This document shows positions 2,808 to 44,392 of a stretch of 64,000 nucleotides of DNA, one piece after another. The notes under the pieces were generated by a model. That model was not told the DNA's origin, did not search any database, and saw nothing but the letters and a program-made list of their open reading frames with translations. The first letter of the stretch is position 1; every line of letters begins with the position of its first letter. The translations under genes were made by a program, and so were the position numbers. Source of the DNA: Amia ocellicauda (lineage: Eukaryota > Chordata > Actinopteri > Amiiformes > Amiidae). The stretch spans positions 186,001-250,000 of the forward strand of contig NW_027102662.1 in assembly GCF_036373705.1 (NCBI RefSeq), read 5' to 3'.

Positions 2808-2992
2808 TTATGGGTGGCCTTGTTGTTCAGGGTTTTATGGGTGCACACTTTCTGACGGATATGACGTAGGAATAATTAAGGAAATAACTCTACCTAAAAT
2901 CACGCCCCCCAATTATGACGTAGGAATATTAATAAGCTTAGGGCATACGTCATAACAAAATAGGCCGCGCCCAAAAAACCCTACTATCTACT
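2808..2992 (-). repeat. Polinton right terminal inverted repeat, copy 0
   Basis: 185 bp. It reads outward to ...CCCTACTATCTACT, so the element begins 5'-AGTAGATAGTAGGG on the other strand; a terminal AG is typical of Polintons. It is the inverse of the left repeat at 22376-22560 with only a few mismatches. It contains three TGACGTA/TACGTCA motifs. Confidence 0.95.
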
Positions 2993-2998
2993 CTTATG
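2993..2998. repeat. target site duplication CTTATG (right side, copy 0)
   Basis: CTTATG directly abuts the terminal repeat and continues as TAGTTGAAGG, exactly as in the uninterrupted tRNA spacer at 5214-5219. It matches the 6-bp duplication on the left side at 22370-22375. Confidence 0.9.
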
Positions 2999-3308
2999 TA
3001 GTTGAAGGCGCAGTATAGCTCTCATAGTCTGGTGGTGACGGAAGACCACCAGCCGTTTGAACAAGCCATTCAGCATCACCTTGTTGGGTTAAGTGCAGGC
3101 ACTGTCAGAGCGCAGGGCGTCCTGCCTTTGAAAGAGTTTCCGAAGTGTCCTGATGTGCCCTTTAGCAATGCCAAACAGGTCTGTGAAAATGGCATCCTTT
3201 CGCGGCACTTCAGACGCCATCTCACAGTCTAGCCGACCTGAAACGCCTGAGCCCGTTTTACCAGCAGGCTCCAACGGTAACCGTTTGAAGCAAGAGGCGG
3301 CGTTGTCA

Positions 3309-3381
3309 GTTTCCGAAGTGTAGCGGTTATCAAATTCGCCTAACGCGCGAAAGGTCCCCTTTTCGAAACCGGGCGGAAACA
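3309..3381 (+). pseudogene. tRNA-Val(AAC) pseudogene
   Basis: 73 nt with the right overall layout and anticodon AAC in an intact 5-bp stem. The T stem is broken (CCCTT facing CCGGG) and the D-arm side is altered (TCAAATTCGCC). Probably inactive. Confidence 0.8.
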
Positions 3382-3951
3382 GCCTGCTTTGGGCCGGCCC
3401 TTTTCGTCCTGCTTGCCCTTGTGGTTCCCCGCAGGCGGTGGGTGGCTTTTCTTCATTGGAGTGCCCGAAATCGGTGCTCTCAGAGCGTCCGTCCGTCGAC
3501 AGGTTGAAATTGTAAACGCTGGTGTAGCCACTTTTAATTAAAATCTGATGATGATGATGATGATGATGTTGTTGTTGTTGTTCTTGTTGTTCTTGTTGTC
3601 GTCGTAGTCGCCGTCATTATTATTGTTAAAGTAAAGCAGTAGTTAGATTTGTTGCTACCGTAAGGTGTAGAAGGCACAATAGCTCTGATAGTCTGGTGGT
3701 GAAGGAAGACCACCAGACGTTTGAACAAGCCATTCAGCATCACCTTGTTGGGCTAAGTGCAGGCACTGTCAGAGCGCAGGGCGTCCTGCCTTTGAAAGAG
3801 TTTCCAAAGTGTCCTGATGTGCCCTTTAGCAATGCAAAATAGGTCAGTGAAAATAGAAACCTTTATCTCACAGGCTGGCCCACGGGAAACGCCTGTGCGC
3901 GTTTTATCAGCCTGCTTCGATGGGAGCCATTCGAAACGCCAGGACGGGTCG

Positions 3952-4024
3952 TTTTCTGTAGTGTAGTGGCTATCACGTTCGCCTCACACGCGAAAGGTCC
4001 CCGGTTCGAAACCGGGCGGAAACA
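3952..4024 (+). pseudogene. tRNA-Val(CAC), acceptor stem mutated
   Basis: Anticodon loop CTCACAC gives CAC, and the D and T arms are good. The 5' acceptor strand reads TTTTCTG instead of GTTTCCG, so the first pair is lost and another becomes a wobble. It is borderline between a weak gene and a pseudogene. Confidence 0.65.
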
Positions 4025-4915
4025 ACCCGCGGTGCACGCGTGCCAGTGCCATGTTACCCGTCGCCATCTCTCTGCCCCAAGGCCGGCCGTCGTTTTCTCT
4101 TCCTCGGAGTGGCAAGAAATCCTGACCTTGAGAACAAACGATCGCAGAAGGGTAGCTTTGCGAGGCGCTGGAACTCACACTTTTAAAATCGATACATGTT
4201 GTAGCTGTTACAATACGACCGTAGCAGGATCAGCGACATTGCTGTTACTCTTATGTAGTCGAAGGCGCAGTATAGCTCTGATAGTCTGGTGGTGACGGAA
4301 GACCTCCAACCGTTTGAACAAGCCATTCAGCATCACCTTGTTGGGCTGAGTGCAGGCACTGTCAGAGCGCAGGGCGACCTGCCTTTGATAGAGTATCCTA
4401 AGTGTCCCGAAATCGGTGCACTCAGAGCGTCCGTCCGTCGACAGGTTGAAATTGTAAACGCTGGTGTAGCCACTTTTAATTAAAATATGATGATGATGAT
4501 GATGATGTTCTTGTTCTTGTTCTTGTTGTTGTTGTTGTTCTTTTGTTTTTCTTGTTGTCGTCGTGGTCGCCGTCATTATTATTGTTAAAGTAAAGCAGTA
4601 GTTAGATTTGTTGCTACCGTAAGGTGTAGAAGGCACAATAGCTTTGTGATTGTCTGATGGTGGCACAAGACGAGCAGCAGCTGTTTGAACAAGCCATTGA
4701 GCATCACCTTGTTAGGGTAAGTGTAAGTCTCGTCATAGCTCAGGGCGTTCTTCCTTTGAAAGAGTTTCCAAAGTGTCCTGATGTGCCCTTTAGCAATGCA
4801 AAATAGGTCAGTGAAAATAGAAACCTTTATCTCACAGGCTGGCCCACGGGAAACCCCTGTGCGCGTTTTACCAGCCGGCTTCGATGGGAGCCATTTGAAA
4901 CACCAGGACGGGTTG

Positions 4916-4988
4916 GTTTCCGTAGTGTAGTGGCTATCACGTTCGCCTCACACGCGAAAGGTCCCTGGTTCGAAACCGGGCGGAAACA
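4916..4988 (+). tRNA. tRNA-Val(CAC)
   Basis: Complete cloverleaf. Acceptor GTTTCCG pairs with CGGAAAC; anticodon stem TTCGC/GCGAA encloses loop CTCACAC; T arm is CCTGG-TTCGAAA-CCGGG with one G-T pair. A TTTT run follows about 70 nt downstream as a possible Pol III terminator. Nearly the same sequence occurs at 40466-40538. Confidence 0.88.
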
Positions 4989-5860
4989 ACCCGCGGTGCA
5001 CGCGTGCCAGTGCCGTGTTACCCGTCGCCATCTCTCTGCCCCAAGGCCGGCCGTCGTTTTCTCTTCCTCGGAGTGGCAAGAAATCCTGACCTTGAGAACA
5101 AACAATCGCAGAAGGGTAGCTTTGCGAGGCACTGGAACTGACACTTTTAAAATCGATACATGTTGTTGCTGTTACAATACGACCGTAGCAGGATCGGCGA
5201 CATTGCTGTTACTCTTATGTAGTTGAAGGCGCAGTATAGCTCTGATAGTCTGGTGGTGACGGAAGACCACCAGCCGTTTGAACAAGCCATTCAGCATCAC
5301 CTTGTAGGGCTAAACGCAGGCACTGTCAGAGCGCAGGTCGTCCTGCCTTTGAAAGAGTTTCCGAAGTGTCCCGAAATCGGTGCACTCAGAGCGTCCGTCC
5401 GTCGACAGGTTGAAATTGTAAACGCTGGTGTAGCCACTTTTAATTAAAATCTGATGATGAAGATGTTGTTGTTGTTATTCTTGTTGTCGTCGTAGTCGCC
5501 GTCATTATTAATGTTAAAGTAAAGCAGTAGTTAGATTTGTTGCTACCGTAAGGTGTAGAAGGCACAATAGCTCTGATAGTCTGGTGGTGAAGGAAGACCA
5601 CCAGACGTTTGAACAAGCCATTCAGCATCACCTTGTTGGGTTAAGTGCAGGCACTGTCAGAGCGCAGGGCGTCCTGCCTTTAAAAGAGTTTCCGAAGTGT
5701 CCTGATGTGCCCTTTAGCAATGCCAAACAGGTCAGTGAAAATGGCATCCTTTCGCCGCACTTCAGACGCCATCTCACAGCCTAGCCGACCTGAAACACCT
5801 GAGCCCGTTTTACCAGCAGGCTTTAACGGTAACCATTTGAAGCAAGAGGCAGCGGTGTCA

Positions 5861-5933
5861 GTTTCCGTAGTGTAGCGGTTATCACGTTCGCCTAACGCGC
5901 GAAAGGTCCCCGGTTCGAAACCGGGCGGAAACA
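5861..5933 (+). tRNA. tRNA-Val(AAC)
   Basis: Complete cloverleaf with all stems paired; loop CTAACGC gives anticodon AAC; T arm CCCGG-TTCGAAA-CCGGG. A TTTT run lies about 20-25 nt downstream. This is the best-preserved AAC gene of array 1. Confidence 0.92.
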
Positions 5934-6730
5934 GCCTACTGTGGGCTGGCCCTTTTCGTCATGCTTGCCCTCGTGGTTCCCCGGAGGCGGTGGGTGTCTT
6001 TTCTTCATTGGAGTGCCCGCAATCGATGCACTCAGAGCGTCCGTCCGTCGACAGGTTGAAATTGTAAACGCTGGTGTAGCCACTTTTAATTAAAATCTGA
6101 TGATGATGATGATGATGATGTTGTTGTTGTTGCTCTTGTTGTTGTTGTTCTTGTTGTCATCGTGGTCGCCGTCATTATTATTGTTAAAGTAAAGCAGTAG
6201 TTAGATTTGTTGCTACCGTAAGGTGTAGAAGACAACAGTTGGTATGGCGTGTGATATCAAAACATTCAGAATACTTTTAACCTATATAATTTATAAGCTT
6301 TGTAAAATAAACCCAAATATCTCTTTTGCGGGGATAAACGCTGTTCTGAGTAGTTTGTGACTTGTTTAATACCAAACAAAGCATCGCTATTAAAAAAAAA
6401 AAAAATCACTGTAAAAGCGCTAGTTATTTTAGATCTTTATAGTTATTTTCTAGGCTCAGGTTGTTTTTTAGTGCTTATAAAGGCCTGAAATATTCTTAGT
6501 GGTTGTTGACTATAGGTCTTGATGCTTAAAAATGTTTTTTTGAGAGACCAAAAGGTTCTAATAAAAGTTTAGAGTAGAGAGGAGAGAGATCGTCTCCATC
6601 TTGGTTTCTATTTGAAATTTGATGCAGTGTCATTTTATTGGTTGGTTTTGATATGTTAATTGGTAACAGGGCGGCACAAAGGCCAGACCAGAACAATGCC
6701 TTACAAGCAGATCCGGCATGTGGCCATCAG

Positions 6731-6736
6731 TATAAG
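6731..6736 (+). promoter_or_regulatory. TATA box of the spliced left-end gene
   Basis: TATAAG about 73 nt upstream of the exon 1 ATG. Conserved at 23753-23758 (B) and 42278-42283 (C). Confidence 0.5.
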
Positions 6737-6803
6737 TATGAAGGTCTGGTCTTCAGCTCGACAGACTCATACTGACCTTTCGATTTAAGACTAAAGATCA
6801 ACA

Positions 6804-8844
6804 ATGTCCGGAAACAACATCAGCGATTCGATTTAAACGAGTTTTTAGGCAAGTCTTCAGATTATTTTCATTGACTCAGAGCGTGTTGTGTGCATGTATT
6901 GTAAATAAGGCTATAACATCTGTTTTAAGTTCTGTAAAATTATTTTTCAGCCAGTCAACAGGAGTTCATTTCCAACGCTGAGGAGATCATCTGGAACAAC
7001 GACGGTAAGAATTTTGTGTTTGCGCTCATGGGTTCTTATGCATGGGTGTGTGTGGTTTTGAAGCGGCTCATTAGAGTTATGAAAACGTTTTAATATATAT
7101 TAATGCCGGTCTCTTTAATTACACAGAAACTATCGAAAGGCCTGTGATTAATGTCTCCGAGGATCGACCAAGAGAAGTGGTTATCCCTAGACAGGCTGTC
7201 TGCCGACCGGGTAAGAACTAAACCCCTGTTTGTTTGTATAACGATTCTGTAAGATGTTTGAGTCCAGTTTTGTTAATTTAAAAAAATTATCCTGTCTAAC
7301 AGTATTAAGAAATGTGGTTCGAGACAACGAAAGGCCTTCCACATCGAGGGCTTGTTTCGTTTTACCTTCGAGAACCGTAACCTTTCAAGAATCTGAAAGG
7401 CCGTCAGCCCCGGTATCTGATAGCTGTGAGTATATATCTGCAGCCTGTAAGAGGTTAAAGCTTTTTATAAAGCGGTGTGGTTAAAGGTTAAACATGTCTC
7501 TTACCTTCACAGCGGTGCAAAAAGCTAAACCAGCCGAAAAACATAAGAAACGATTATTCTGTGGAGGTAAGTAAGATCTTTCAAACTTTAATGTTTTTAA
7601 AAGGGCTTTGTTTGCCCGTTGAGGGCTAATATTTAAGCGATGGGTGACCGTTTCCTGTAGGGCGGGGGGTTCTGGGAAAGATCTTTAGAAGTCCGGACAG
7701 GTCTAGGCTTGTTTCTGGGGAACGTGTTTAGAAATGACCGATTGCCGTACCGTCTGGTTAGGAAGTAAAGCCGTCCGAAAGGGTTTAGTAAGTTGTTTGG
7801 CTTATCTCCCGCTATTATACTTCTGTTTTAAAGTGGTTGTAGGAAAAGGCTTGAAGGTGTTCATTGTATTTAATATTTAAACAGATCGTGAAAACGTTTG
7901 TGAAACAGGAAGTCCCGGGATCAGGAAGCGTTTACACTTGGAAGGTTCGTTTAAAAATGAAATGTTGTTGTGTGTGTGTGTGTTTTATTAACAATATTAC
8001 AGTTTTTAAAGAAACATTTAAGAAACAGTTTATTTACAGCGGCATCTCTGTTTTACATTTATTATCAAGTCCTAATAAATATATTGTCTGTAAATAATAA
8101 GGCGTTGTAGTGAATGTCTAAGGCTATTTTCAAAGGTCTAAAAAAGCTAAAGGTTTTGAATGTCCTGGACATGTTGTTTTAAGTTTGATTTCTGTCGCCG
8201 TTTAAAGATGTAAATGTAATGTATATTTTTATTCTTCCCAAGACTCTTGGGATAGTCATTCTGTGAATGAGCTATTGATGACAATTACCCCGTCTAAGTG
8301 GGATCAAACATCTTTCCCGGTGAGATCACCGAGAGGATCCCCCACGGTGGTCTTGGAGACCCCCCAACATCTACTCAGGCCACAGCCTTCTGGGGGTAAT
8401 TCAACACCCCAGATTCAGCCCGCCGCATTGTCGGGCGGAACAAATACAGGCATCCAACAACCTCAGGGGTCGCCGTCAGTCAGGGCTGACACACCACCCA
8501 ACGACGGCCTGGTTTCAACATCGTCCCCCCAGACCCGTTTCTTGGCTACAGAAACGCGGAACAGTACCCCGCGCTTGGCCAGGGTGTCACCGCAAAGGCC
8601 TTCTTGGTCTCCGTCCATGAGTATACACTCGCTCCTTGCCTCCTTCGACCGAGATTTACCGGAGCGACCATCCTTTGAAGCTGAGCCAGGCCACCAGCCC
8701 CCGGAGCTTCTTCCTGAAGGTCGGCATGAGTTGCTACATACTTTGTTACAAAATCAAAGACTTGTGTTAGTGGGGCAAAACCTGCTGATAGAGAGCCAAA
8801 ACACCCTTATTAATACCCTTACTAACGAATTGTACCGTATTTAA
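6804..8844 (+). pseudogene. seven-exon left-end gene, copy A (exon 1 frameshift)
   Basis: No single long frame covers it, but splice signals define seven exons: 6804-6848, 6951-7004, 7127-7210, 7303-7425, 7513-7566, 7885-7944 and 8243-8844. All six introns are phase 1, and the five internal exons are multiples of three (54, 84, 123, 54, 60 nt). The first intron uses a GC donor (AG|GCAAGT) with an AG acceptor; the others are GT-AG. The product would be about 340 residues: acidic start, repeated Glu-Arg-Pro motifs in exons 3, 4 and 7, a Pro/Ser-rich middle, and a Leu/Asn-rich, probably coiled-coil C-terminus. No family is recognised. Lying next to the left terminus behind a TATA box suggests an early regulatory protein (inference). 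Copy A lacks one base in exon 1 (also missing in copy C), giving an early stop. An AATAAA follows at 8891. Confidence 0.7.
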
Positions 8845-8910: not shown

Positions 8911-11900
8911 ATGTCCTGACTTGGTAAAAGAACTCACAAACTAAAGGATTATGAACAAGCTAGGGCCCCAAAAAGACCTTCCCGAGAGAACATCCCCGGC
9001 CCTGTTGTGAACTCCTCTGATGTCCCAATGAACCTGGAACTATTACAAATGATAAATGATTTAAATAACCCCCAATTACCACCGATAGAATGTGAATTAA
9101 CAGAATTACCGGTGAACCCCGACCTGTTACAGATGGTCAATGATCTAAATAACCACCTCCCACCGGTAGCGCTTATAGAGGTTCACCCCCTAGTTCACCC
9201 CGATTTGTTTGAAATGGTGGAGGCTTTGGAGGAGCTACCCCGACCAAATTCTGCCCCTATTATAAATGATTTGAAACAATTAGAACACAGGATGGCGGCA
9301 GAAGCAGCCATCACTATAGAGGAGGGTCTTGACATTAACCGGTTGGATATCTTTGAAGGACTTTTACAGGCTTTAAATGAGCCTCCTCAAAAAGGGGGTT
9401 TTGTAGATGTCAGCAGTGGGGGTGTTTGGAATTTGGAGGGTTCTGAGACTGATAAGGCTGTGGAGGACATGCTCTGTGAGAATGTAGGGGGTGAAGGCTT
9501 TGTTCAAAATGATGATGTGTCCAAGAGTACCAGTGATCCCGTGATTATAGATAGACCGGCCTATAACAATTTTGAAATGATTCAGCGTTTTAATTTTGCA
9601 GAACTTTTAAATTGTGACAATTATGCAGAAATATTTGTCAACATATACGAGGCCTTGCAGAAAATGCTTGAACAGGTTGCTGAAAGGGTCAGACCTCGAG
9701 ATGTTGTACAGTTAGAACCCAGAGGGGATGATTTGTTTAGCAACCTATCTGTAATGCTGAGTGGAGATAATTTAGACGTCTGGCTAAAATCGAAGCGTTA
9801 TTGCAAAGTAACGCAGCCATCATAGCTGATGAAAGTCTGTCTCTGGTAATGAATGTGGTTCGTAACCCTGAGGGTGGGGTGCTTAGAAGACTGTCGAAAT
9901 GCTTGAAGAACGACATAATTAGGACCAAGCTCAGGCAATTAGTGGTGAGTTCCAGTGGGGAAAATAAGCTCTGTTTTGCTTACAGTTTAATAAAATTACT
10001 CACCCCCGACATGCCTGAACCCCAAGCTCTGCAAGAGGCTTTAATGCTTCATCAGAGGGCCGGCTTAAACTCTCAACAGATGGTTGCCTTTTCAGACATC
10101 ACCAAGTTTGAGGAGTTGTTGTCTTTAAAAATTGTTGTGTGGTACCGTTGTGAGGTAAAGGAAGTATTTGTGAAATTTCAGACACATCCTGAAACCCATA
10201 CACAGACACTGTTTCTCTTCCTAAGTGATAGTCATTACTTTGGAATAAAGAGTTTGACGGCTTTTTTGGGTTGTTCGTATGTTTGTCATTGTTGTTATAA
10301 GGCCTTCAATGATATGCTTAAGCACCGCTGTGACGGTTACTGTAACGTCTGATTCAATCCCCAATGTTGTAAGGGTTTGGCCCCTACCATCCGATGAAAA
10401 GATTGCTTAAGGATTTGTCTCTCTGCGTTCTGTTTTTCCGAGCATAAGGTACAGAGGGCCGCTGCTGAGGGGGTTAAAAAACTGAGTTATTGTGATCAAA
10501 CTAAATATTGCCCGCAGTGTTGCCTCCAGTACCGTTTTCATGAGGTTAAACCACACAAATGTCTGGAGCCGAGATGCAGGATCTGTAATGCTGATTTAAC
10601 CCCGGGGTCCGAACACCAGTGCTTTATTCAGCCGGTTAAAAAGGAGCCGCCGCACAACCGGTATGTCTTTTTTGCTTTTGAATGCCGGCAAGAAAACGGG
10701 GTCCACGTTGCTAATTATATACACTGTATTGACATGTTGGATCGTGAGTGGTCAGCTAGCGGTGAGAGTTGTGTCAGGGAAATCATTACGCGGTATCGCG
10801 GTCCAAAATACCTCAATTACACATTTATTGCCCACAATGCTAAGGGTTATGATTCTTACATTTTGATGAAGTATCTGGTGGAAAATGGGGTGACCCCAAA
10901 AATAATAGCTCAGGGTAGCAAGATCATGTGTTTCACCGACGAAGCTTTCAACTAACGTTACATAGACTCGTTAAATTTCCTCCCCATTAAATTGAGCGCT
11001 TTGCCTAAGGCTCTGGGTTTTGAGGCTCAGAAGAAAGGTTGGTTCTGCCATTTTTTTAATACTAAGGACACTCAAAATTATCGAGGGTCCTACCCGCCCG
11101 CCTCTTATTATGGGGTTGATACTATGATGTCTCATGAGAGGGACGAATTCTTTAAATGGTACAATACCGAGAAGAGATGGCCGCTTATTGTAAAAATGAT
11201 GTGGTGATCCTTAAAGAAGCCTGTGTGCGTTTCTGCGCCGAGGTTATCAACACATCGGGTCTCGACCCTTTGCAAAGTGTGACCATAGCGTCTCTCTGCA
11301 TGAAAATGTATCGGTCCAATTTCTTGCAGAAAAACACTATAGCGGTCACCACTTCTGACAACTATCGTGCTAGACAAAAGAACTTTTCGACTGTCTCCAT
11401 ACAGTGGCTGGAATACCTGAGTGCCCGGGATAACATCTTCATCAGACATGCTTTAAATCAAGGGAAAGTCAAAATGGGGCCTTACTACTTAGACGGTTTT
11501 AGCGACGTGTCCGGGCGGCGTACCGCTTATGAGTTTGCTGGTTGTATTTACCATGGCTGTCCTCAGTGCTTCGACCCAAACACCTTTAACCCCGTAACAC
11601 AAAAACTCTGCGGTGATATGTACTATGATTTCCAGGAACGAATTGAAACTTTAAAAAACACCTATGGTTTGAACGTGCTGGTGATTTGGGAACACGAGTG
11701 GACGACCCTGAAGCAACAGGATGCGGGGGTACAATGGTTTATGGAAACCTTGGACTTTCCTGAACGTCTAGAGCCCCGGGATGCGTTATTTGGGGGTCGT
11801 ACCAACGCCCTCTGTTTACATTATGAGGTAAAGGAGGGTGAGAGAGTAGATTACTATGATTTCACCAGTCTGTACCCTTATGTCAACAAGACCAAAATGT

Positions 11901-13114
11901 ACCCGGTGGGGCGTCCAACCATTGTTTATCGTGACTTTCTCAAAATCGGACATTTCTTTGGTTTGATCAAAGTCACCATGTACCCTCCTCGTGAGCTGTT
12001 CTTACCCGTGTTGCCTTACAGGTGTTCGGGAAAATTGATGTTCCCTCTGTGTAGAACGTGTGTGGAAACTGAAAATCAAACTACCTCTTGTCTGCACAGT
12101 GATGAAGAGAGAGCGCTGACGGGTGTCTGGTGTAGCATTGAGCTTGACAAGGCGGTGGAGAAAGGTTACAGAGTCGGTAAGGTGTATGAGGTTTGGCATT
12201 TTTCTGAAAAACCTGATACTCTTTTTGCTGATTACATTATGACCCATCTGAAAGGGAAACAGGAGGCATCGGGCTATCCCTCATGGTGTGTTGACTCCGC
12301 GGCCAAAGAGCGATACGTTCATCAATATTTTGAAAAGAAAGGGATCCGTCTAGAGCCGGGGAACATAACTGTAAACCCCGCCAAGAGACAAATGTCCAAA
12401 CTGATTTTAAACAGTCTGTGGGGTAAGTTTGGGGAAAGAAATTACCGTCTAAACACAACCATGATTAAAACCCCTGAACAGTTTATAGAATTTATGTTTT
12501 CCAAACAACATGCAGTATCACACTTTCAATTCTTAAATGACCACGTGGCACAGGTCCAGTGGAGGGCCCCTAAAGATTTCCCCACCAAACAGGGGAACGT
12601 TAATGTTTTCATAGCGGTTTTTACCACGGCTTACGCCCGGCTTGAACTGTACAACTTAATGGATCAGTTGCAGGAACGCACGCTCTATCATGATACTGAC
12701 TCTGTAATCTTTGTCACCAGGCCAGGGGATTGGGTCCCTCCCCTCGGGGACTACCTTGGGGAGTTAACGAGCGAACTAGATCCTCAGGACCACATAGTGG
12801 AGTTTGTTTCAGGGGGTCCTAAGACTTACGCATACAGAACGGCTGCGGGTAAGACCTGTATGAAAGTTAAGGGTTTCACTCTGAAACATTGTAACAACAA
12901 GCTCATTAACATCAAGTCTCTGACGACCCTGGTAGAAAGTTTTGTAACCGAGAAAGACGCGCCTCCTCGTGAGATTATTACAGCCGGAAATCAGATCTAT
13001 CGCAATAAAAAGGGGTACACGTTGGAAAATAGATCACTAAACAAACGGTTCAGGGTGGTGTACAATAAAAGAGTGTTGAAGACTGATTATACCACTCTGC
13101 CTTATGGATATTAG
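8911..13114 (+). pseudogene. polB: protein-primed family B DNA polymerase, copy A
   Basis: Polinton replicative polymerase; the family uses a protein primer at the linear ends. The N-terminal region (about 8940-9825, continued out of frame at 9801-10352) starts with three degenerate repeats around LLQMxNDLNN. A Cys/His-rich zinc region follows (10270-10640). Then come exonuclease motifs I (10675-10690, Phe-Ala-Phe-Glu), II (HNAKGYDS, about 10833) and III (YCKNDVVIL, about 11180), and polymerase motifs A (DFTSLYP, 11847-11878), B (LNSLWGKFG, about 12400) and C (DTDS, about 12690). Breaks shared with copy B: a TGA two codons after an ATG at 8911, a frameshift near 9790, TGA at 10350 followed by a frame change, and TAA at 10953. 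Private to A: a 26-nt deletion near 11170. The last 652 codons (11156-13114) stay open. It overlaps the ATPase start by 11 nt. Confidence 0.92.
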
Positions 13115-18147: not shown

Positions 18148-19239
18148 TTATAAGGATTGAATATCGCAAACCTGTTGTTCCGGGACCCAACTATTGAACT
18201 TTTCAGGCCATCCAAGCCATTTCACCAACACATATTTTTTCCGGTTCTGGGTTTTTTCAGCAAATATCTTTTCAACTCTGTATACACTGTCTTTACCCAC
18301 AATAATTTTTTGTAACTCGGCTTCGTAAAACGTTCCTTCTATATCCTCCCCGTCATAGTCTTTTAACCGGTACACGGGGGGGTCTCTAGCCAACTGTTCG
18401 GTAACTGTAAAATATTCGTAAGAAAATGTTTGTTCATAACCTTTGGCAAAAGTACTCCTTAGCTTTGAAACGCGAACCACATCACCGATGTTGAACTTAT
18501 AAGTAGATTTTCCCTTCTTAATAAATGGTCCGTATAATTTTTTATAGACCTTAAAAGAATTACTTTGATCCACATCTATAGGCTTCATTTTAATACTGGT
18601 GTGATACCCTTGGTTGTAAGTATCGATAAAATCCTGAACTTTATCAAAATATTTGAACGTGTTGACCGCTGTAAAATATCTCCACATTTTGGTCTTTATG
18701 GTGCGGTTAAACCTCTCCACTACCGATGCCTTAAGCTCATTACCGGTGGTGAAATGATGTATTTTGTGTCTCTTCAGTAGATTCTGAAATTCTCTGTTGA
18801 GAAACTCTTTTCCTTTATCAGTCTGCAGTTTTTTAGGACATCGACCCTGGGACAATATATCCTCAAAGGCCCTTGTCACCGCCCGACCTGTTTTATTATG
18901 TAGAATGCGAGCCCAGGCATATTTTGATAACACATCGATACACATCAACATAAATTTGTGACCATTGTTATGTTTTGATAAATTTGACATATCGACTAGA
19001 TCCATTTGCCATTGTGAGTCTATGTCAGTTGCATATACGCGGTTTCTTTTAAAGTTAATCCTGAGAGGTTTATGTAAGGTATAGGCGTCTTGTTCCCGTA
19101 ACCATTCTGAAACAACCACATCATTAACCTTCACTCCGGCCTCAGCGAGTCCTCTTTGAAAACCCTTCTTACCCGCCAAACCCCCAATCTTGGCTGGGTT
19201 GTAGTATAGTTCCTGCATTTGGGGAGCTTGCCGAGTCAT
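18148..19239 (-). CDS. retrovirus-type integrase with chromodomain (copy A, intact)
   Basis: 363 residues from MTRQAPQM; the frame stays open six codons further, but only with GTG. DDE core: Asp80 (WQMDLVD), Asp141 (LQTDKGKEF) and Glu175 (VVERFN), giving a D-D-about-34-E spacing. A basic SH3-like DNA-binding region follows at about 240-310. The C-terminal 45-50 residues form a chromodomain (YRVEKI...YVLVKWLGW...SWVPE), which in this family reads histone marks and can steer insertion. It would process the ends, join them to host DNA and leave the 6-bp duplication seen here. Its end overlaps the N-terminal frame of penton. A TATA box lies 40 nt upstream. Serine-to-tyrosine and similar single changes separate it from copies B and C. 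Confidence 0.95.
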   Translation of the reverse strand: MTRQAPQMQELYYNPAKIGGLAGKKGFQRGLAEAGVKVNDVVVSEWLREQDAYTLHKPLRINFKRNRVYATDIDSQWQMDLVDMSNLSKHNNGHKFMLMCIDVLSKYAWARILHNKTGRAVTRAFEDILSQGRCPKKLQTDKGKEFLNREFQNLLKRHKIHHFTTGNELKASVVERFNRTIKTKMWRYFTAVNTFKYFDKVQDFIDTYNQGYHTSIKMKPIDVDQSNSFKVYKKLYGPFIKKGKSTYKFNIGDVVRVSKLRSTFAKGYEQTFSYEYFTVTEQLARDPPVYRLKDYDGEDIEGTFYEAELQKIIVGKDSVYRVEKIFAEKTQNRKKYVLVKWLGWPEKFNSWVPEQQVCDIQSL

Positions 19240-19411
19240 TCTGTCAAATAACCACACAGACCCACACTATGCGCAAAGTTTTTATACAAGGTTTTTTATT
19301 CAACTTCAGGAGAGCAGATACCCCTTTTTAGACATTTGAGAAAAGTATAACATACACAACAATTTTCTCTACGGTCCAGACAAAAAGAAATCAGATGATT
19401 GGTTACTTGAT

Positions 19412-21571: not shown

Positions 21572-21756
21572 TTATGGGTGGCCTTGTTGTTCAGGGTTTT
21601 ATGGGTGTACACTTTCTGACGGATATGACGTAGGAATAATTAAGGAAATAACTCTACCTAAAATCACGCCCCCCAATTATGACGTAGGAATATTAATAAG
21701 CTTAGGGCATACGTCATAACAAAATAGGCCGCGCCCAAAAAACCCTACTATCTACT
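21572..21756 (-). repeat. Polinton right terminal inverted repeat, copy A
   Basis: 185 bp, inverse of 22376-22560 with about two mismatches (for example TTATTTCC against TTATATCC). Followed by CTTATG (21757-21762). Confidence 0.95.
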
Positions 21757-21762
21757 CTTATG
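21757..21762. repeat. target site duplication CTTATG (right side, copy A)
   Basis: Abuts the right terminal repeat; identical to the copy at 22370-22375 that abuts the left repeat of copy B. Confidence 0.9.
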
Positions 21763-22369
21763 TAGTTGAAGGCGCAGTATAGCTCTGATAGTCTGGTGGT
21801 GACGGAAGACCACCAGCCGTTTGAACAAGCCATTCAGCATCACCTTGTTGGGCTAAGTGCAGGCACTGTCAGAGCGCAGGGCGTCCTGCCTTTGAAAGAG
21901 TTTCCAAAGTGTCCTGATGTGCCCTTTAGCAATGCCAAACAGGTCTGTGAAAATGGCATCCTTTCGCGGCACTTCAGACGCCATCTCACAGTCTAGCCGA
22001 CCTGAAACGCCACAGCCCGTTTTACCAGCAGGCTTCAACGGTAACCGTTCGAAGCAAGAAGCGGCAGTGTCGGTTTCCGTTGCATAGCGTTATCACATAC
22101 GCCTCACATGCGAAAGGTCCCTGGTTCGAAACTGTGCGGAAACAACCCGCGGTGCACGCGTGCCAGTGCCGTGTTACCTGTCGCCATCTCTCTGCCCCAA
22201 GGCTGGCCATCGTTTTCTCTTCATCGGAGTGGCAAGAAATCCTGACCTTGAGAACAAACGATCGCAGAAGGGTAGCTTTGCGAAGCGCTGGAACTGACAC
22301 TTTTAAAATCGATACATGTTGTTGCTGTTACAATACGACCGTAGCAGGATCGGCGACATTGCTGTTACT
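21763..22369 (+). repeat. tRNA-Val array 2: one hybrid unit between copies A and B
   Basis: A single spacer plus tRNA. The part before the tRNA matches AAC-type units (hairpin, TTTAGCAATGCCAAACAGG, CGCGGCACTTCAGACGCC). The tRNA body and everything after it match CAC-type units (AACAACCCGCGGTGCACGCG). The unit looks like the product of an exchange within or near the tRNA gene that removed the units between. It has no microsatellite. Confidence 0.75.
22073..22144 (+). pseudogene. tRNA-Val(CAC) pseudogene at the hybrid unit
   Basis: 72 nt. The D arm is short and altered (TTGCATAGCGTTATC), the anticodon stem is changed (ATACGCCTCACATGCGAA) and the T stem has a mismatch (CCTGG facing CTGTG). Anticodon CAC is still readable. 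Probably inactive. Confidence 0.8.
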
Positions 22370-22375
22370 CTTATG
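22370..22375. repeat. target site duplication CTTATG (left side, copy B)
   Basis: ...GCTGTTACTCTTATG meets AGTAGATAGTAGGG. In the uninterrupted array the same bases continue TAGTTGAAGG (for example at 5214-5219). Confidence 0.92.
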
Positions 22376-22560
22376 AGTAGATAGTAGGGTTTTTTGGGCG
22401 CGGCCTATTTTGTTATGACGTATGCCCTAAGCTTATTAATATTCCTACGTCATAATTGGGGGGCGTGATTTTAGGTAGAGTTATATCCTTAATTATTCCT
22501 ACGTCATATCCGTCAGAAAGTGTACACCCATAAAACCCTGAACAACAAGGCCGCCCATAA
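22376..22560 (+). repeat. Polinton left terminal inverted repeat, copy B
   Basis: 185 bp starting AGTAGATAGTAGGG. It contains TGACGTA at 22416-22422 and TACGTCA at 22446-22452 and 22500-22506, plus GC-rich boxes (GGGCGCGGCC, GGGGGGCGTG). It is the inverse of the four right repeats. Confidence 0.95.
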
Positions 22561-23825: not shown

Positions 23826-25836
23826 ATGTCCGGAAACAACATCAGCGACTTCGATTTAAACGAGTTTTTAGGCAAGTCTTCAGATTATTTTCATTGACTC
23901 AGAGCGTCATCTGTTTTAAGTTCTGTAAAATTATTTTTCAGCCAGTCAACAGGAGTTAATTCCCAACGCTGAGGAGATCATCTGGAACAACGACGGTAAG
24001 ATTTTTGTGTTTGCGCTCATGGGTTCTTATGTATGGGTGTGTGTGGTTTTGAAGCGGCTCATTAGAGTTATGAAAACGTTTTAATATATATTAATGCCGG
24101 TCTCTTTAATTACACAGAAACTATCGAAAGGCCTGTGATTAATGTCTCCGAGGATCGACCAAGAGAAGTGGTTGTCCCTAGACAGGCTGTCTGCCGACCG
24201 GGTAAGAACTAAACCCCTGTTTGTTTGTATAACGTTTCTGTAAGATGTTTGAGTCCAGTTTTGTTAATTTTAAAAAATTATCCTGTCTAGCAGTATTAAG
24301 AAACGTGGTTCGAGACAACGAAAGGCCTTCCACATCGAGGGCTTGTTTCGTTTTACCTTCGAGAACCGTAACCTTTCAAGAATCTGAAAGGCCGTCAGCC
24401 CCGGTATCTGATAGCTGTGAGTATATATCTGCAGCCTGTAAGAGGTTAAAGCTTTTTATAAAGCGGTGTGGTTAAAGGTTAAACATGTCTCTTACATTCA
24501 CAGCGGTGCAAAAAGCTAAACCAGCCGAAAAACATAAGAAACGATTATTCTGTGGAGGTAAGTAAGATCTTTCAAACTTTAATGTTTTTAAAAGGGCTTT
24601 GTTTTGCCCGTTGGGGGCTAATATTTAAGCGATGGGTGACCGTTTCCTGTAGGGCGGGGGGTTCTGGGAAAGATCTTTAGAAGTCCGGACAGGTCTAGGC
24701 TTGTTTCTGGGGAACGTGTTTAGAAATGACCGATTGCCGTACCGTCTGGTTAGGAAGTAAAGCCGTCCGAAAGGGTTTAGTAAGTTGTTTGGCTTATCTC
24801 CCGCTATTATACTTCTGTTTTAAAGTGGTTGTAGGAAAAGGCTTGAAGGTGTTCATTGTATTTAATATTTAAACAGATCGTGAAAACGTTTGTGAAACAG
24901 GAAGTCCCGGGATCAGGAAGCGTTAACACTTGGAAGGTTCGTTTAAAAATGAAATGTTGTTGTGTGTGTGTGTGTTTTATTAACAATATTTCAGTTTTTA
25001 AAGAAACATTTAAGAAACAGTTTATTTACAGCGGCTTCTCTGTTTTACATTTATTATCAAGTCCTAATAAATATATTGTCTGTAAATAATAAGGCGTTGT
25101 AGTGAATGTCTAAGGCTATTTTCAAAGGTCTAAAAAAGCTAAAGGTTTTGAATGTCCTGGACATGTTGTTTTAAGTTTGATTTCTGTCGCCGTTTAAAGA
25201 TGTAAATGTAATGTATATTTTTATTCTTCCCAAGACTCTTGGGATAGTCATTCTGTGGATGAGCTATTGAGGACAATTACCCCGTCTAAGTGGGATCAAA
25301 CATCTTCCCCGGTGAGATCACCGAGAGGATCCCCCACGGTGGTCTTGGAGACACCCCAACATCTACTCAGGCCACAGCCTTCTGGGGGTAATTCAACACC
25401 CCAGATTCAGCCCGCCGCATTGTCGGGCGGAACAAATACAGGCATCCAACAACCTCAGGGGTCGCCGTCAGTCAGGGCTGACACACCACCCAACGACGGC
25501 CTGGTTTCAACATCGTCCCCCCAGACCCGTTTCTTGGCTACAGAAACGCGGAACAGTACCCCGCGCTTGGCCAGGGTGTAACCGCAAAGGCCTTCTTGGT
25601 CTCCGTCCATGAGTATACGCTCGCTCCCTGCCTCCTTCGACCGAGATTTACCGGAGCGACCATCCTTTGAAGCTGAGCCAGGCCACCAGCCCCCGGAGCT
25701 ACTTCCTGAAGGTCGGCATGAGTTGCTACATACTTTGTTACAAAATCAAAGACTTGTGTTAGTGGGGCAAAACCTGATGATAGAGAGCCAAAACACCCTT
25801 ATTAATCCCCTTACTAACGAATTGTACCGTATTTAA
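23826..25836 (+). pseudogene. seven-exon left-end gene, copy B (two nonsense codons)
   Basis: Exons 23826-23871, 23942-23995, 24118-24201, 24294-24416, 24504-24557, 24877-24936 and 25235-25836. Exon 1 keeps the base lost in A and C, so the frame runs through the first five introns. TAA in exon 6 (24924-24926, one base changed from A and C) and TAA in exon 7 (25579-25581) break it. The first intron is shorter than in A and C (about 30 bp less), yet donor, acceptor and phase are kept. Confidence 0.72.
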
Positions 25837-32009: not shown

Positions 32010-32581
32010 TTAACACGCATGACATCTTTTAAAATCCTCACAAGAACACCCCATCTGTATACATGGCTGGCTAGGGTCGTAAGTCATTGTGTTATAAGGG
32101 GGGGTCCACAGTGTCCTGACAAACTCTGCCACTTTTTTATCATTTTGGCCTAAATCCTCACTGTACAAGGCCATAATATCGGGGTATGACCTTCCTTTAG
32201 ATCTATGATATAAGAAAAACACACAGTGTTGACCACAAGTGAAGGTCTGAAGACTTTGTACTTGACGACCGCTGTAAATGGTTTCTTGACAGTTGTTGAG
32301 CAGAAAGTTATTGATCTTCCGAGGGAAATGTCTGAAATCCGGGGGGTTTGCATAGGAATCAAAAAATTCACCACGGTGGTCCTCCCTTAGATAAATAGCC
32401 AGCCAATGTTCTCCGGGCATGTTTTTAGGGTGTGTGTTGATTATGTACATTGCAGGTAAATTCTTGATCTTAAATTTAGGCAGCTGATCGCAGGCGTTGA
32501 CCCTTTAAACAGTTTCCGTGAGCCGGCCAGGGCATTCATGATGTGGTTGAGCTCTCTGGTGTTCATTTTAATAATAATCAT
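32010..32581 (-). pseudogene. adenain-like cysteine protease, copy B (frameshift near N-terminus)
   Basis: The catalytic part from MYIINTHPKNMPGEHW to the end is open (146 codons). The preceding ~40 codons are displaced by small changes near 32500 (GCGTTGACCCTTTAAA against GCGTAGACTCCTTGAAA). Confidence 0.85.
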
Positions 32582-33876
32582 ACAGAACGTTTCTTCTCTG
32601 ATTCACCTCAATAATGTTGTCAAACACAGCATACACGACCATATTTACAGTGCGTGGTAGAGGCTGCTTGAAACGCATCTCCAAACGCATATTGCCCGTC
32701 TTCATCAGTGAAAAATGTTGTCCACACTCTTCGTCAGGGGTCAGGTTGAAACCGTACAGGGTGTAACCGCTGCAGTATTCCCGGCGATCGATCAGCAGAG
32801 TTTGATCCTTGAGATGGCGACCCGTAGCCAGTACTAGACTGTAATATTCACGAACCGCATTGCCGTTTTCAAAGTCAGGTTGAAAAGGTCTGGATGGAAC
32901 CTGCACACCATCGACGTACAACGCTATAAATTCCGCATTATAATCTTTAAAGTTAAAGGGGTTCTTGTTGTAAACCCCGGTAAATGCATCATTAACCACG
33001 AGGCCTATAATAACCTGTTTTGGGAGCTGTCCTAGAAACAGATTTTCCTGGTTCATCACCCGTGTCCCTGCGGGGATACTGTGGACTTTCATATAGACTC
33101 TTTCGATCGGGTACTCGGCGTTTGCCGTCATTAACGCCTGCGCGTGTCCTAGTTTAACCGCCGGGGAGACGGACACTTTTTTCACAAACAGCGAGGCCGA
33201 TAATATGGTCAGTTTATATTTTTCAGTATCAGGGGTCATCAGACAAAAAGCACTTTTACTACGGATCATTTTAATTTTAATGTCTACCCCGTTGAGCATG
33301 AGTTTTTCTTGGAAAAATATGTCTGCATGGATATGCCCCATTAGCTCAAAGGTCCTCCCTTCTGTTGAAGAGGCCGTTCTTTTTTGCAAACCCTTATTGA
33401 GTCCCTCTGGATCCTTGTCGTCCATAGCTTCCGGGATGTCTTTGAAGAAAAGGCCGGGGCTGAACTGTTTGCTTAGGGTCTCCTCACTATAATTAAGGAT
33501 ACACTCCATCATGGCTCTATAGGGGTAAGTATTGCTGCTTTGACTAATGAGCCGATCTCCCAGGGTCACATCCACCTGTGAAAACATGGTGGCCACCGGG
33601 TAATTGAAGACCCCAGCGTTGGCCGTCTTCTCGATTGCATCGCCATCCTCATCAGTCACTTTACAGTTCATTAAAATAAATGTGTTATTCAAATCAATAT
33701 AATCCTCGCCATTGCCAGCTATAAAAAAACTCTTGAGGGGCCGTGTCTGAAATTGCAGAAAGAGGGGGAATCTCTACATATATGCTCTTATCTATACTCG
33801 TTTGAGTGTATGGAACTGTAAACAGATCCAGTTCTGATTTGACGCATTCTTCCGATAGACTGTGGACAAAAGACAT
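32568..33876 (-). pseudogene. hexon / major capsid protein, copy B
   Basis: The best-preserved hexon: 373 codons are open from Asn-Asn-Thr-Phe to the stop, and the Val-Thr-Asp stop of A, C and D is a Glu codon here. Insertions in an A-run near 33722 shift the N-terminal ~60 codons out of frame. Confidence 0.8.
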
Positions 33877-37741: not shown

Positions 37742-38333
37742 TTAGAAGAGAGTAGCCCCTGAGCCGTCAGACCCCCCTCCAAAACCCCACACGTCGTCGG
37801 TTTTTTCATCGTCGTCGTCATTCAAGGGGGATATATAATCCATAATCCAGCATATTCTCCTTCTAACCAAATCCAGTTGCGAACATTTGGTCAAGATGTC
37901 AAAACCATCATTTATACAGTTTATGACCTCTTTCAAGAACGGCCAGTCCACGGCGTCAAACATAATTTCAGTAACCTGTTTTTCTGGATCCTCCACACCC
38001 CCTTCAATAGGGTTTGTAATCAGGGTACTGCTAAACAAAACCTTACGATCTGTAGTTAGAGATAGACTCTTCACCACTCTACCGTAGTTCTGCAAGCTTT
38101 CCCATTCACACCTTTCAAAACCCTGAGTCGGAGACTCCATTTCGCATTCTCTTGGACCCTCTTGCAAGCCTTCTAGAGTCTTATCCACAAGCCCCAGATC
38201 TCTCCAGGCCATCACCTTCAACCAGTCCTCATAAGAGTATTCAATTACCGTCTCAAAAGGTTCCAACGTACCCTCCTTCTCTCCCAAAGCAAAAAGCTCC
38301 ACTCCAACATAGCTGGGATCCCTTTTAAAGCGC
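37742..38333 (-). pseudogene. 236-residue terminal gene, 5' end replaced by tRNA-spacer DNA (copy B)
   Basis: The C-terminal ~195 codons are intact up to Arg-Phe-Lys-Arg-Asp. Upstream, the frame continues by chance into tRNA-array DNA (to 38494) because a deletion fused the two at a 4-base AGCG overlap. The native start, promoter and right terminal repeat are gone. Confidence 0.85.
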
Positions 38334-38528
38334 AGGGCGACCTGCCTTTGAAAGAGTTTCCAAAGTGTCCTGATGTGCCCTTTAGCAATGCCAAACAGGT
38401 CTGTGAAAATGGCATCCTTTCGCAGCACTTCAGACGCCATCTCACAGTCTAGCCGACCTGAAATGCGTGAGCCCGTTTTACGAGCAGGCTTCAACGGTAA
38501 TCGTTTGAAGCAAGACGTGGCGGTGTCA

Positions 38529-38601
38529 GTTTCCGTAGTGTAGCGGTTATCACGTTTGCCTAACGTGCGAAAGGTCCCCCGATAGAAATCAGGCGGAAAC
38601 A
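38529..38601 (+). pseudogene. tRNA-Val(AAC) pseudogene
   Basis: Anticodon AAC is readable, but the T arm is destroyed (CCCCGATAGAAATCAGG), so the B box is lost. Confidence 0.85.
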
Positions 38602-38783
38602 GCCTGCTGTGGGCCGGTCCTTTTCGTCCTGCTTGCCCTCGTGGTTCCCCGGAGGCGGTGGGTGGTTTTTCTTCATTGGAGTGCCCGAAATCGGTGCACT
38701 CAGAGCGTCCGTCCGTCGACAGGTTGAAATTGTAAACGCTGGTGTAGCCACTTTTAATTAAAATCTGATGATGTTGATGATGT

Positions 38784-38814
<31 letters not shown>

Positions 38815-39188
38815 CTTGTTGTTCTTGTTGTCGTCGTAGTCACCGTCATTATTAATGTTAAAGTAAAGCAGTAGTTAGATTTGTTGCTATCGTAAGGTGT
38901 AGAACGCACAATAGCTCTGTGATTGTCTGATGGTGGCACAAGACGAGCAGCAGCTGTTTGAACAAGCCATTGAGCATCACCTTGTTGGTGTAAGTGTAAG
39001 TCTTGTCATAGCTCAGGGCGTTCTTCCTTTGAAAGAGTTTCCAAAGTGTCCTGATGTGCCCTTGAGCAATGCAAAATAGGTCAGTGAAAATAGAAACCTT
39101 TATCTCACAGGCTGGCCCATGGGAAACGCCTGTGTGCGTTTTACCAGCCGGCTTCGATGGGAGCCATTCGAAACGCCAGGACTGGTCG

Positions 39189-39261
39189 GTTTCCGTAGTG
39201 TAGTGGCTATTACGTTCGCCTCACACGCAAAAATTCCCTGGTTCGAAAACGGCCGGAAACA
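39189..39261 (+). pseudogene. tRNA-Val(CAC) pseudogene
   Basis: Anticodon-stem 3' side mutated (GCAAA), variable region altered (AATTCC), T stem and 3' acceptor changed (AAAACGGCCGG). Confidence 0.82.
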
Positions 39262-39802
39262 ACCCGAGGTGCACGCGTGCCAGTGCCGTGTTACCCGTCC
39301 CCATCTCTCTGCCCCAAGGCTGGCCGTCGTTTTCTCTTCCTCGGAGTGGCAAAAATTCCTGACCTTGAGAACAAACGATCGCAGAAGGGAAGCTTTGCGA
39401 GGCGCTGGAACTGACACTTTTAAAATCGATACATGTTGTTGCTGTTACAATACGACCGTAGCAGGATCGGCGACATTGCTGTTACTCTTATGTAGTTGAA
39501 GGCGCAGTATAGCTCTGATAGTCTGGTGGTGACGGAAGACCACCAGCCGTTTGAACAAGCCATTCAGCATCACCTTGTTGGGCTAAGTGCAGGCACTGTC
39601 AGAGCGCAGGGCGTCCTGCCTTTGAAAGAGTTTCCGAAGTATCCTGATGTGCCCTTTAGCAATGCCAAACAGGTCAGTGAAAATGGCATCCTTTCGCGGC
39701 ACTACAGACGCCATCTCACAGCCTAGCCGACCTGAAACGCCTGAGCCCGTTTTACCAGCAGGCTCCAACGGTAACCGTTCGAAGCAAGAGGCCACAGTGT
39801 CA

Positions 39803-39875
39803 GTTTCCGTAGTGTAGCAGTCATCACGTTTGCCTAACGCGCGAAAGGTCCCCCGTTCGAAACCGGGCGGAAACA
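39803..39875 (+). pseudogene. tRNA-Val(AAC), degenerate
   Basis: D arm changed (TAGCAGTCATC), a T-G pair in the anticodon stem, and a T-stem mismatch (CCCCG facing CCGGG). Activity doubtful. Confidence 0.65.
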
Positions 39876-40465
39876 GCCTGTTGTGGGCCGGTCCTTTTCA
39901 TCCTGCTTGCCCTCGTGGTTCCCTGGAGGCAGTGGGTGGCTTTTCTTCATTGGAGTGCCCGAAATCGGTGCACTCAGAGCGTCCGTCCGTCGACAGGTTG
40001 AAATTGTAAACGCTGGTGTAGCCACTTTTAATTGAAATATGATGATGATGATGATGATGTTGTTGTTCTTGTTCTTGTTGTTGTTGTTGTTCTTGTTTTT
40101 CTTGTTGTCGTCGTGGTCGCCGTCATTATTATTGTTAAAGTAAAGCAGTAGTTAGATTTGTTGCTACCGTAAGGTGTAGAAGGCACAATAGCTTTGTGAT
40201 TGTCTGATGGTGGCACAAGACGAGCAGCAGCTGTTTGAACAAGCCATTGAGCATCACCTTGTTGGGGTAAGTGTAAGTCTTGTCATAGCTCAGGGCGTTC
40301 TTCCTTTGAAAGAGTTTCCAAAGTGTCCTGATGTGCCCTTGAGCAATGCAAAATAGGTCAGTGAAAATAGAAACCTTTATCTCACAGGCTGGCCCACGGG
40401 AAACCCCCGTGCGCGTTTTACCAGCCGGCTTCGATGGGAGCCATTTGAAACACCAGGACGGGTCG

Positions 40466-40538
40466 GTTTCCGTAGTGTAGTGGCTATCACGTTCGCCTCA
40501 CACGCGAAAGGTCCCTGGTTCGAAACCGGGCGGAAACA
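40466..40538 (+). tRNA. tRNA-Val(CAC)
   Basis: Complete cloverleaf, same sequence as 4916-4988; anticodon CAC, one G-T pair in the T stem. Confidence 0.88.
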
Positions 40539-42350: not shown

Positions 42351-44392
42351 ATGTCCGGAAACAACATCAGCGATTCGATTTAAACGAGTTTTTAGGCAAG
42401 TCTTCAGATTCTTTTCATTGACTCAGAGCGTGTTGTGTGCATGTATTGTAAATAAGGCTATAACATCTGTTTTAAGTTCTGTAAAATTATTTTTCAGCCA
42501 GTCAACAGGAGTTAATTCCCAACGCTGAGGAGATCATCTGGAACAACGACGGTAAGATTTTTGTGTTTGCGCTCATGGGTTCTTATGCATGGGTGTGTGT
42601 GGTTTTGAAGCGGCTCATTAGAGTTATGAAAACGTTTTAATATATATTAATGCCGGTCTCTTTAATTACACAGAAACTATCGAAAGGCCTGTGATTAATG
42701 TCTCCGAGGATCGACCAAGAGAAGTGGTTGTCCCTAGACAGGCTGTCTGCCGACCGGGTAAGAACTAAACCCCTGTTTGTTTGTATAACGTTTCTGTAAG
42801 ATGTTTGAGTCCAGTTTTGTTAATTTTAAAAAATTATCCTGTCTAACAGTATTAAGAAACGTGGTTCGAGACAACGAAAGGCCTTCCACATCGAGGGCTT
42901 GTTTCGTTTTACCTTCGAGAACCGTAACCTTTCAAGAATCTGAAAGGCCGTCAGCCCCGGTATCTGATAGCTGTGAGTATATATCTGCAGCCTGTAAGAG
43001 GTTAAAGCTTTTTATAAAGCGGTGTGGTTAAAGGTTAAACATGTCTCTTACCTTCACAGCGGTGCAAAAAGCTAAACCAGCCGAAAAACATAAGAAACGA
43101 TTATTCTGTGGAGGTAAGTAAGATCTTTCAAACTTTAATGTTTTTAAAAGGGCTTTGTTTGCCCGTTGAGGGCTAATATTTAAGCGATGGGTGACCGTTT
43201 CCTGTAGGGCGGGGGGTTCTGGGAAAGATCTTTAGAAGTCCGGACAGGTCTATGCTTGTTTCTGGGGAACGTGTTTAGAAATGACCGATTGCCGTACCGT
43301 CTGGTTAGGAAGTAAAGCCGTCCGAAAGGGTTTAGTAAGTTGTTTGGCTTATCTCCCGCTATTATACTTCTGTTTTAAAGTGGTTGTAGGAAAAGGCTTG
43401 AAGGTGTTCATTGTATTTAATATTTAAACAGATCGTGAAAACGTTTGTGAAACAGGAAGTCCCGGGATCAGGAAGCGTTTACACTTGGAAGGTTCGTTTA
43501 AAAATGAAATGTTGTTGTGTGTGTGTGTGTTTTATTAACAATATTACAGTTTTTAAAGAAACATTTAAGAAACAGTTTATTTACAGCGGCTTCTCTGTTT
43601 TAAATTTATTATCAAGTCCTAATAAATATATTGTCTGTAAATAATAAGGCGTTGTAGTGAATGTCTAAGGCTATTTTCAAAGGTCTAAAAAAGCTAAAGG
43701 TTTTGAATGTCCTGGACATGTTGTTTTAAGTTTGATTTCTGTCGCCGTTTAAAGATGTAAATGTAATGTATATTTTTATTCTTCCCAAGACTCTTGGGAT
43801 AGTCATTCTGTGAATGAGCTATTGAGGACAATTACCCCGTCTAAGTGGGATCAAACATCTTTCCCGGTGAGATCACCGAGAGGATCCCCCACGGTGGTCT
43901 TGGAGACCCCCCAACATCTACTCAGGCCACAGCCTTCTGGGGGTAATTCAACACCCCAGATTCAGCCCGCCGCATTGTCGGGCGGAACAAATACAGGCAT
44001 CCAACAACCTCAGGGGTCGCCGTCAGTCAGGGCTGACACACCACCCAACGACGGCCTAGTTTCAACATCGTCCCCCCAGACCCATTTCTTGGCTACCGAA
44101 ACGCGGAACAGTAACCCCGCGCTTGGCCAGGGTGTCACCGCAAAGGCCTTCTTGGTCTCCGTCCATGAGTATACACTCGCTCCTTGCCTCCTTCGACCGA
44201 GATTTACCGGAGCGACCATCCTTTGAAGCTGAGCCAGGCCACCAGCCCCCGGAGCTACTTCCTGAAGGTCGGCATGAGTTGCTACATACTTTGTTACAAA
44301 ATCAAAGACTTGTGTTAGTGGGGCAAAACCTGCTGATAGAGAGCCAAAACACCCTTATTAATACCCTTACTAACGAATTGTACCGTATTTAA
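42351..44392 (+). pseudogene. seven-exon left-end gene, copy C (two frameshifts)
   Basis: Exons 42351-42395, 42498-42551, 42674-42757, 42850-42972, 43060-43113, 43432-43491 and 43790-44392. Same exon 1 base loss as copy A. One extra base near 44113 (CAGTAACCCC) shifts exon 7. Splice sites and intron phases are unchanged. Confidence 0.72.

Follow-up and report, generated by a model that had tools for sequence, protein, structure and literature searches.

The closest described relatives of the element studied here are the Mavericks, or Polintons, of vertebrates and the adintoviruses. According to excerpts of a survey of vertebrate Mavericks (Barreat and Katzourakis 2021, PMC8097293), the open reading frames (ORFs) of these elements are intronless, with no introns in intact elements, accessory genes flank the core, and Polinton particles are stated as not observed so far. 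With vertebrate Polinton genes described in this way, ORF-based surveys would miss spliced accessory genes, and within the open-licence literature no spliced vertebrate Polinton gene was found in print. For the adintoviruses, the excerpted text of PMC11071296 describes candidate oncogenes and an 'Oncoid' class defined only by short motifs. We analysed a stretch of 64,000 nucleotides (nt) from the bowfin Amia ocellicauda, an early-branching ray-finned fish (contig NW_027102662.1, positions 186,001 to 250,000; hereafter the window), in which several copies of a Polinton/Maverick-type element are arrayed. The element appears to carry a seven-exon spliced accessory gene, which starts 1.45 kb inside its left end (measured in copy B, below) and precedes the DNA polymerase B (PolB) block. 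We put the probability of this reading at roughly 0.7.

Three copies of the gene, A to C, lie in the window, with the following predicted layout:

6731..6738, plus strand: TATAAGTA box, 73 nt ahead of the ATG
6804..6848, plus strand: exon 1 of copy A, not in frame with the exons that follow it in this copy
6849..6950, plus strand: intron 1 of copy A, GC-AG here and GT-AG in dispersed copies
6951..7004, plus strand: exon 2 of copy A, copies aligned
7127..7210, plus strand: exon 3 of copy A, copies aligned
7303..7425, plus strand: exon 4 of copy A, present in the NCBI models P0001 and P0002
7513..7566, plus strand: exon 5 of copy A, junction 4/5 as in P0001 and P0002
7885..7944, plus strand: exon 6 of copy A, junction 5/6 as in P0001 and P0002
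8243..8844, plus strand: exon 7 of copy A including the stop, junction 6/7 as in P0001 and P0002
8891..8896, plus strand: AATAAA, candidate poly(A) signal read in the sequence
23826..25836, plus strand: copy B, exons 23826-23871, 23942-23995, 24118-24201, 24294-24416, 24504-24557, 24877-24936 and 25235-25836
42351..44392, plus strand: copy C, exons 42351-42395, 42498-42551, 42674-42757, 42850-42972, 43060-43113, 43432-43491 and 43790-44392

The exon and intron boundaries of this model, which go back to an original prediction for the locus, held when the copies were aligned, and the internal exons are indeed multiples of three in all three window copies (54, 84, 123, 54 and 60 nt). The window's own copies are decayed. 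In copies A (6804) and C (42351) the frame from the ATG runs for only ten codons before a stop; the frame through exons 2-7 is open in copy A, and in copy C, where exon 1 is likewise out of frame, exon 7 differs in length by 1 nt. In copy B (23826) exon 1 is in frame, and stops lie in exons 6 and 7. The introns are all in phase 1, as had been claimed, where exon 1 is in frame.

Further copies were collected by searching the 988 Mb genome assembly (G000) with each of two NCBI proteins, described below. Gene copies were found on 20 contigs longer than 20 Mb and on many small contigs, and the unspliced intron 6/exon 7 boundary occurs, with at most three mismatches, at 681 genome places (319+362). 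The 102 loci fetched, mostly picked by their match to the exon 7 protein and some by hand, made up 105 sequences with the three window copies (L001 being copy A). After four whose match stopped short of exon 1 (L061, L062, L069 and L082) had been dropped, the remaining 101 gave 78 non-identical strings for alignment. For each of three loci two versions with different ends were retrieved (L057/L079, L058/L080 and L060/L081), so that the 78 strings represent 75 loci. L075 and L078, which carry large deletions, are among the 78 strings and in none of the indel groups used below.

An ATG-to-stop frame runs through all seven exons in 35 of the 78 strings (34 of the 75 loci), and every splice dinucleotide is kept in 32 of these 35. 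The intact products are 323-341 amino acids long, with 340 in 29 of the 35. Since exon 7 contains no methionine in 32 of the intact copies, it needs an upstream exon for translation in those copies; in 30 of the 35 there is no methionine anywhere downstream of exon 1. Of the 61 aligned strings long enough to include the site, 55 have TATAAG ahead of the ATG.

Apart from donor 1, every splice site has its GT or AG in 70-78 of the 78 strings. Dispersed intact copies usually have a 46-nt exon 1 followed by an intron 1 that begins with GT, and donor 1 as a whole is GT in 55 strings and GC in 23, the latter being 22 array-type copies plus L065, in which only 3 nt of exon 1 are left and the match is a coincidence. 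Within the window's array the GC donor is derived, and the GC-AG boundary singled out in the original prediction, although present in copy A, is not a general property of the gene. The array is also where exon 1 has lost its frame: among 43 sequences from 42 places (6804 being represented twice, as A and L001) with 21 distinct rows, it is out of frame at 41 of the 42 places, including 6804, and in frame in copy B only. It is in frame in L073, an array-like copy on another contig. The dinucleotides are widely kept, but not every boundary has the good donor and acceptor that had been supposed: by position weights, donors 2, 3 and 5 are strong, donor 4 is middling, and donors 1 and 6 (the latter GTTCGT in L041 and GTTTGT in L051) and the acceptors of introns 1 and 5 are weak.

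The distribution of insertions and deletions points the same way in the youngest copies. Because copies were listed by their exon 7 match, exons 1-6 provide the fairer test, and in group I, the youngest subfamily (30 strings), the 421 nt of these exons hold 2 indel events, compared with 21 in the 1033 nt of intron. Columns in which the group majorities differ by a gap number 0 in exons against 26 in introns for groups I-III and 0 against 49 for I-IV, and 1 against 11 for I-A and 1 against 29 for A-III. In 11 hand-chosen pairs of copies, which share copies among them, 6 exonic and 86 intronic indels were counted. Six of the 11 pairs have no exonic indel, and in the others the lengths are 3, 3, 21 and 6 (in frame), 1 (a pair with copy A) and 13 (a pair with L064). 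Constraint on the amino acid sequence of the spliced gene is weak (nonsynonymous-to-synonymous ratio, dN/dS, of 0.7-0.8). By segment, the corresponding ratio pN/pS ranges from 0.57 in exons 1-3 (the lowest value, on few changes) to 0.84 in the central part of exon 7 (the highest). Some of the divergence reflects decay after insertion, and weak selection fits a fast-evolving accessory protein as well as partial relaxation. The core genes of vertebrate Mavericks are, in the excerpted survey, reported to be under strong purifying selection (PMC8097293).

Further support comes from NCBI's own gene models. When the copy A protein was compared with 5.8 billion proteins, 1693 candidates yielded two matches at E <=0.1. 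Both are uncharacterized proteins of Amia ocellicauda that share 90% identity with the query over 82-84% of its length. Their models (P0001 and P0002; LOC136721633 and LOC136717369) are Polinton copies of the spliced gene; placed on their loci of origin, they use junctions 4/5, 5/6 and 6/7, despite the weak donor 6. The original prediction had held that simple frame scanning would miss the gene, and this is supported by the intact dispersed copies, by the avoidance of indels in exons of the youngest group and by these models, which have three of the six introns. The 5′ ends of the two models suggest another possibility, namely that the working transcript begins downstream of exon 3 and consists of exons 4-7 preceded by an alternative first exon or by an ATG in intron 3, exons 1-3 being a start that is older or little used. 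P0001 begins within intron 3, its first 16 residues coming from the intron 3 end and matching L041 exactly, and P0002 (locus L051) has a different 5′ piece of about 31 residues joined to the exon 4 acceptor; this piece may derive from a host exon that is spliced to the element. We consider a downstream start as the working arrangement unlikely, since exons 1-3 are in frame with splice sites in 32 of the 78 copies, are the segment with the lowest pN/pS and are preceded by a TATA box. The seven-exon and downstream-start transcripts may also coexist.

A number of observations weigh against the seven-exon spliced gene. Splicing is predicted here from the DNA sequence and the NCBI models, and neither model includes exons 1-3. 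The three window copies are all broken, which lends support to a view without splicing. A processed copy carrying junction 6/7 was found at 0 genome places by a pattern search allowing at most three mismatches, and AATAAA follows the stop in 38 of the 78 strings only, with AATAAG in 30. In the older group IV, which counts the three double fetches, 13 indel events fall within the 421 nt of exons 1-6, and 11 of these have lengths not divisible by three, as compared with 57 events in the 1078 nt of intron; in the array group the figures are 2 in 420 nt and 3 in 1019 nt; the lack of exon indel avoidance in both groups indicates that copies there are decaying. The listing of copies by exon 7 match also counts here, and most of the paired copies were chosen as intact, so that frame-breaking exonic indels were excluded by the choice itself. 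Mean dN/dS over 72 pairs of intact copies is 0.80 and pN/pS over seven hand-chosen pairs is 0.72, and between groups I and III the divergence of exon 7 (0.031) is about equal to that of the introns (0.030).

Where the gene came from was addressed by sequence searches. The original prediction had suggested a captured host gene, and the seven exons with phase-1 introns do resemble a vertebrate gene more than a Polinton gene. That the gene is such a capture and still recognisable as a cellular family seems quite improbable, however, as three protein searches, covering 5.8 billion proteins, gave only the same two bowfin proteins, both Polinton copies of the spliced gene. One of these was a profile search, in which the best 7995 candidates were scored. 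The N-terminal 136 amino acids alone had no match in the protein databases, and among related viral contigs none was found for this segment (18 pattern matches, none confirmed) or for a 652-amino-acid piece of PolB. An old capture could be missed by these searches, which were seeded on shared 5-residue words and, in the profile search, kept to the best 7995 candidates. The product belongs to no recognised family: Pfam gave no match at E up to 10, and the PDB gave no convincing one, its matches being marginal and shifting between searches. Two of them, to ETV6 (0.0034, then 0.55 on a repeat search) and to UBE2Z (0.052, then 0.031), were judged to be chance.

Exon duplication had been proposed from the recurrence of a Glu-Arg-Pro motif in exons 3, 4 and 7. 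The recurrence was confirmed, with the motif present twice in exon 4, and at least four occurrences, as in L041, were reached in 0 of 2000 shuffles. Shuffled sequences scored as well as the real ones in 33 of 300 cases for exon 3 versus exon 4, 8 of 300 for exon 4 versus exon 7, 4 of 300 for the two halves of exon 4 and 179 of 300 for exon 3 versus exon 7. By these scores only the short motif is clearly repeated, and duplication beyond it was rejected.

As for what the protein may do, we tentatively favour a mostly disordered nuclear regulator made ahead of PolB, which would tune transcription or the cell cycle. It would work like the spliced early genes at the left end of DNA tumour virus genomes, without being related to them. 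The introns would be removed in the nucleus by the host spliceosome, and the symmetric exons would allow isoforms that skip exons without a change of frame. This nuclear, early-side role is suggested by the protein motifs, by the TATAAG and AATAAA signals and by the position before PolB near the left end. The L041 protein is rich in serine (11.5%) and proline (9.7%) and has 13 Ser-Pro or Thr-Pro (SP/TP) sites against a shuffled mean of 6.0 (P=0.004), with 10-13 across the 35 intact copies. Its acidic-hydrophobic N-terminal stretch contains DFDL (DFDLNEFL-type) and resembles the VP16 activation domain, and its last 45 residues, rich in leucine, appear helical by eye. The working parts would then be the acidic N-terminus, the SP/TP cluster, RxL-like cyclin-docking matches and the leucine-rich C-terminal helix. 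The docking matches, two in L041 and 1-3 per copy, are not beyond chance (P=0.12), and LxCxE occurs in 0 of the 35 intact copies; both findings speak against the role. LxCxE had been considered as a retinoblastoma-binding motif and was rejected on this absence, a looser near-match being present in some copies and not in L041. An undescribed early Polinton regulator, put forward as a possibility in the original prediction, stays our best guess for the role, by motif counts and position.

A virion or egress accessory protein in place of a regulator appears highly unlikely. PSAP, a motif of the late-domain kind, is found in all 35 intact copies, but it is a single four-letter motif with P 0.026 by shuffling, and 18 motifs had been tried. 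The gene sits on the PolB side and runs opposite to the integrase and the protease, and the protein is Ser-Pro-rich with clustered SP/TP sites. Finally, it is extremely unlikely that the gene is not spliced at all, with exon 7 open by chance or read without splicing and the sequence pieces ahead of it decayed non-coding DNA: the broken window copies would suit this, but group I indels avoid exons 1-6, many copies are open over their full length, exon 7 mostly has no methionine and the NCBI models are spliced. An artefact of chance or decay was rejected on the basis of the 35 open frames among 78, the indel avoidance in group I exons and the indels of paired copies.

The host element of the array is an ordinary Polinton, of which the seven-exon gene is an unusual accessory. 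The following parts were recognised:

11156..13114, plus strand: DNA polymerase B, right of the gene (Pfam DNA_pol_B_2, E=4.9e-35)
18148..19266, minus strand: integrase with chromodomain (Pfam rve 1.2e-12, Chromo 1.1e-8)
21572..21756, plus strand: right terminal inverted repeat of the preceding element, ending CCCTACTATCTACT, with CTTATG just after
22376..22560, plus strand: left terminal inverted repeat of copy B's element, starting AGTAGATAGTAGGG, with CTTATG just before
48338-48931, minus strand: adenovirus-type protease (Peptidase_C5 4.7e-5, 23.6 bits against a cut-off of 21.3, residues 32-73 only)

A second integrase copy with a chromodomain was also recognised in the window. The inverted ends read AGTAGA...TCTACT with CTTATG outside both, as seen by eye at one junction of two adjacent elements. 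A packaging ATPase candidate (Pox_A32, E ~5e-4) scored 20.1 bits, under the cut-off of 22.8; capsid families matched none of the ORFs scanned, a subset of those in the window, and a PDB search with 32568-33773 (minus strand) gave no match. Ahead of PolB, several overlapping plus-strand ORFs lie at 8920-13114, which may be one long gene that is disrupted in the window copies; the matching region of L041 has no in-frame stop over its first 916 nt. The spacers between elements at 2989-6230, 38209-41780 and 53937-57521 contain tandemly repeated DNA that includes tRNA-Val genes (ten called by ARAGORN and two over the Rfam threshold), and the spacer at 21757-22375 has the same repeats with no tRNA called. 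The Polinton elements may have been amplified with or inside a tRNA-Val array. Elsewhere in G000, Polinton arrays of at least two subfamilies were seen in the first 0.9 Mb of contig C11 and on C12-C17, at 49.3-50.6 Mb of C6, and on C25, C42, C55 and C372; they occupy an end of one large contig as well as smaller ones.

A gene with several introns would require Polinton RNA to be made in the nucleus and spliced by the host. This is relevant to whether Polintons act as DNA viruses of the nucleus, and the six junctions of the gene offer a concrete RNA test for expression of these elements. The bowfin element resembles the vertebrate Mavericks/Polintons of the excerpted survey (PMC8097293) in several ways: integrase and protease are encoded on the strand opposite PolB, a 6-bp repeat lies outside the inverted ends, and the core is flanked by an accessory region, to which the spliced gene would belong. 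The genes of the surveyed elements are intronless, whereas the bowfin accessory gene has, by its sequence, six introns. With the adintoviruses it shares PolB and an rve integrase with a C-terminal chromodomain, and the excerpts of PMC11071296 mention no multi-exon gene. The bowfin gene differs further in having no LxCxE, and no sequence relative was found. LOC136721633 and LOC136717369 of the same species are copies of the spliced gene that share exons 4-7, differ from the seven-exon model in their 5′ ends and are named only as uncharacterized proteins. Adenovirus left-end early genes such as E1A are spliced, early-side, disordered, motif-rich regulators that precede the replication genes. The likeness to E1A would be one of working only, given that the bowfin product showed no similarity to any family or protein and that its gene has more exons. 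Taken as a whole, it is a doubtful but conceivable picture that bowfin Polintons have an early regulator from no known family whose six introns depend on the spliceosome and whose symmetric phase-1 exons allow isoforms, which has travelled with the element through hundreds of copies and which is convergent with the spliced early region at the left end of DNA tumour virus genomes.
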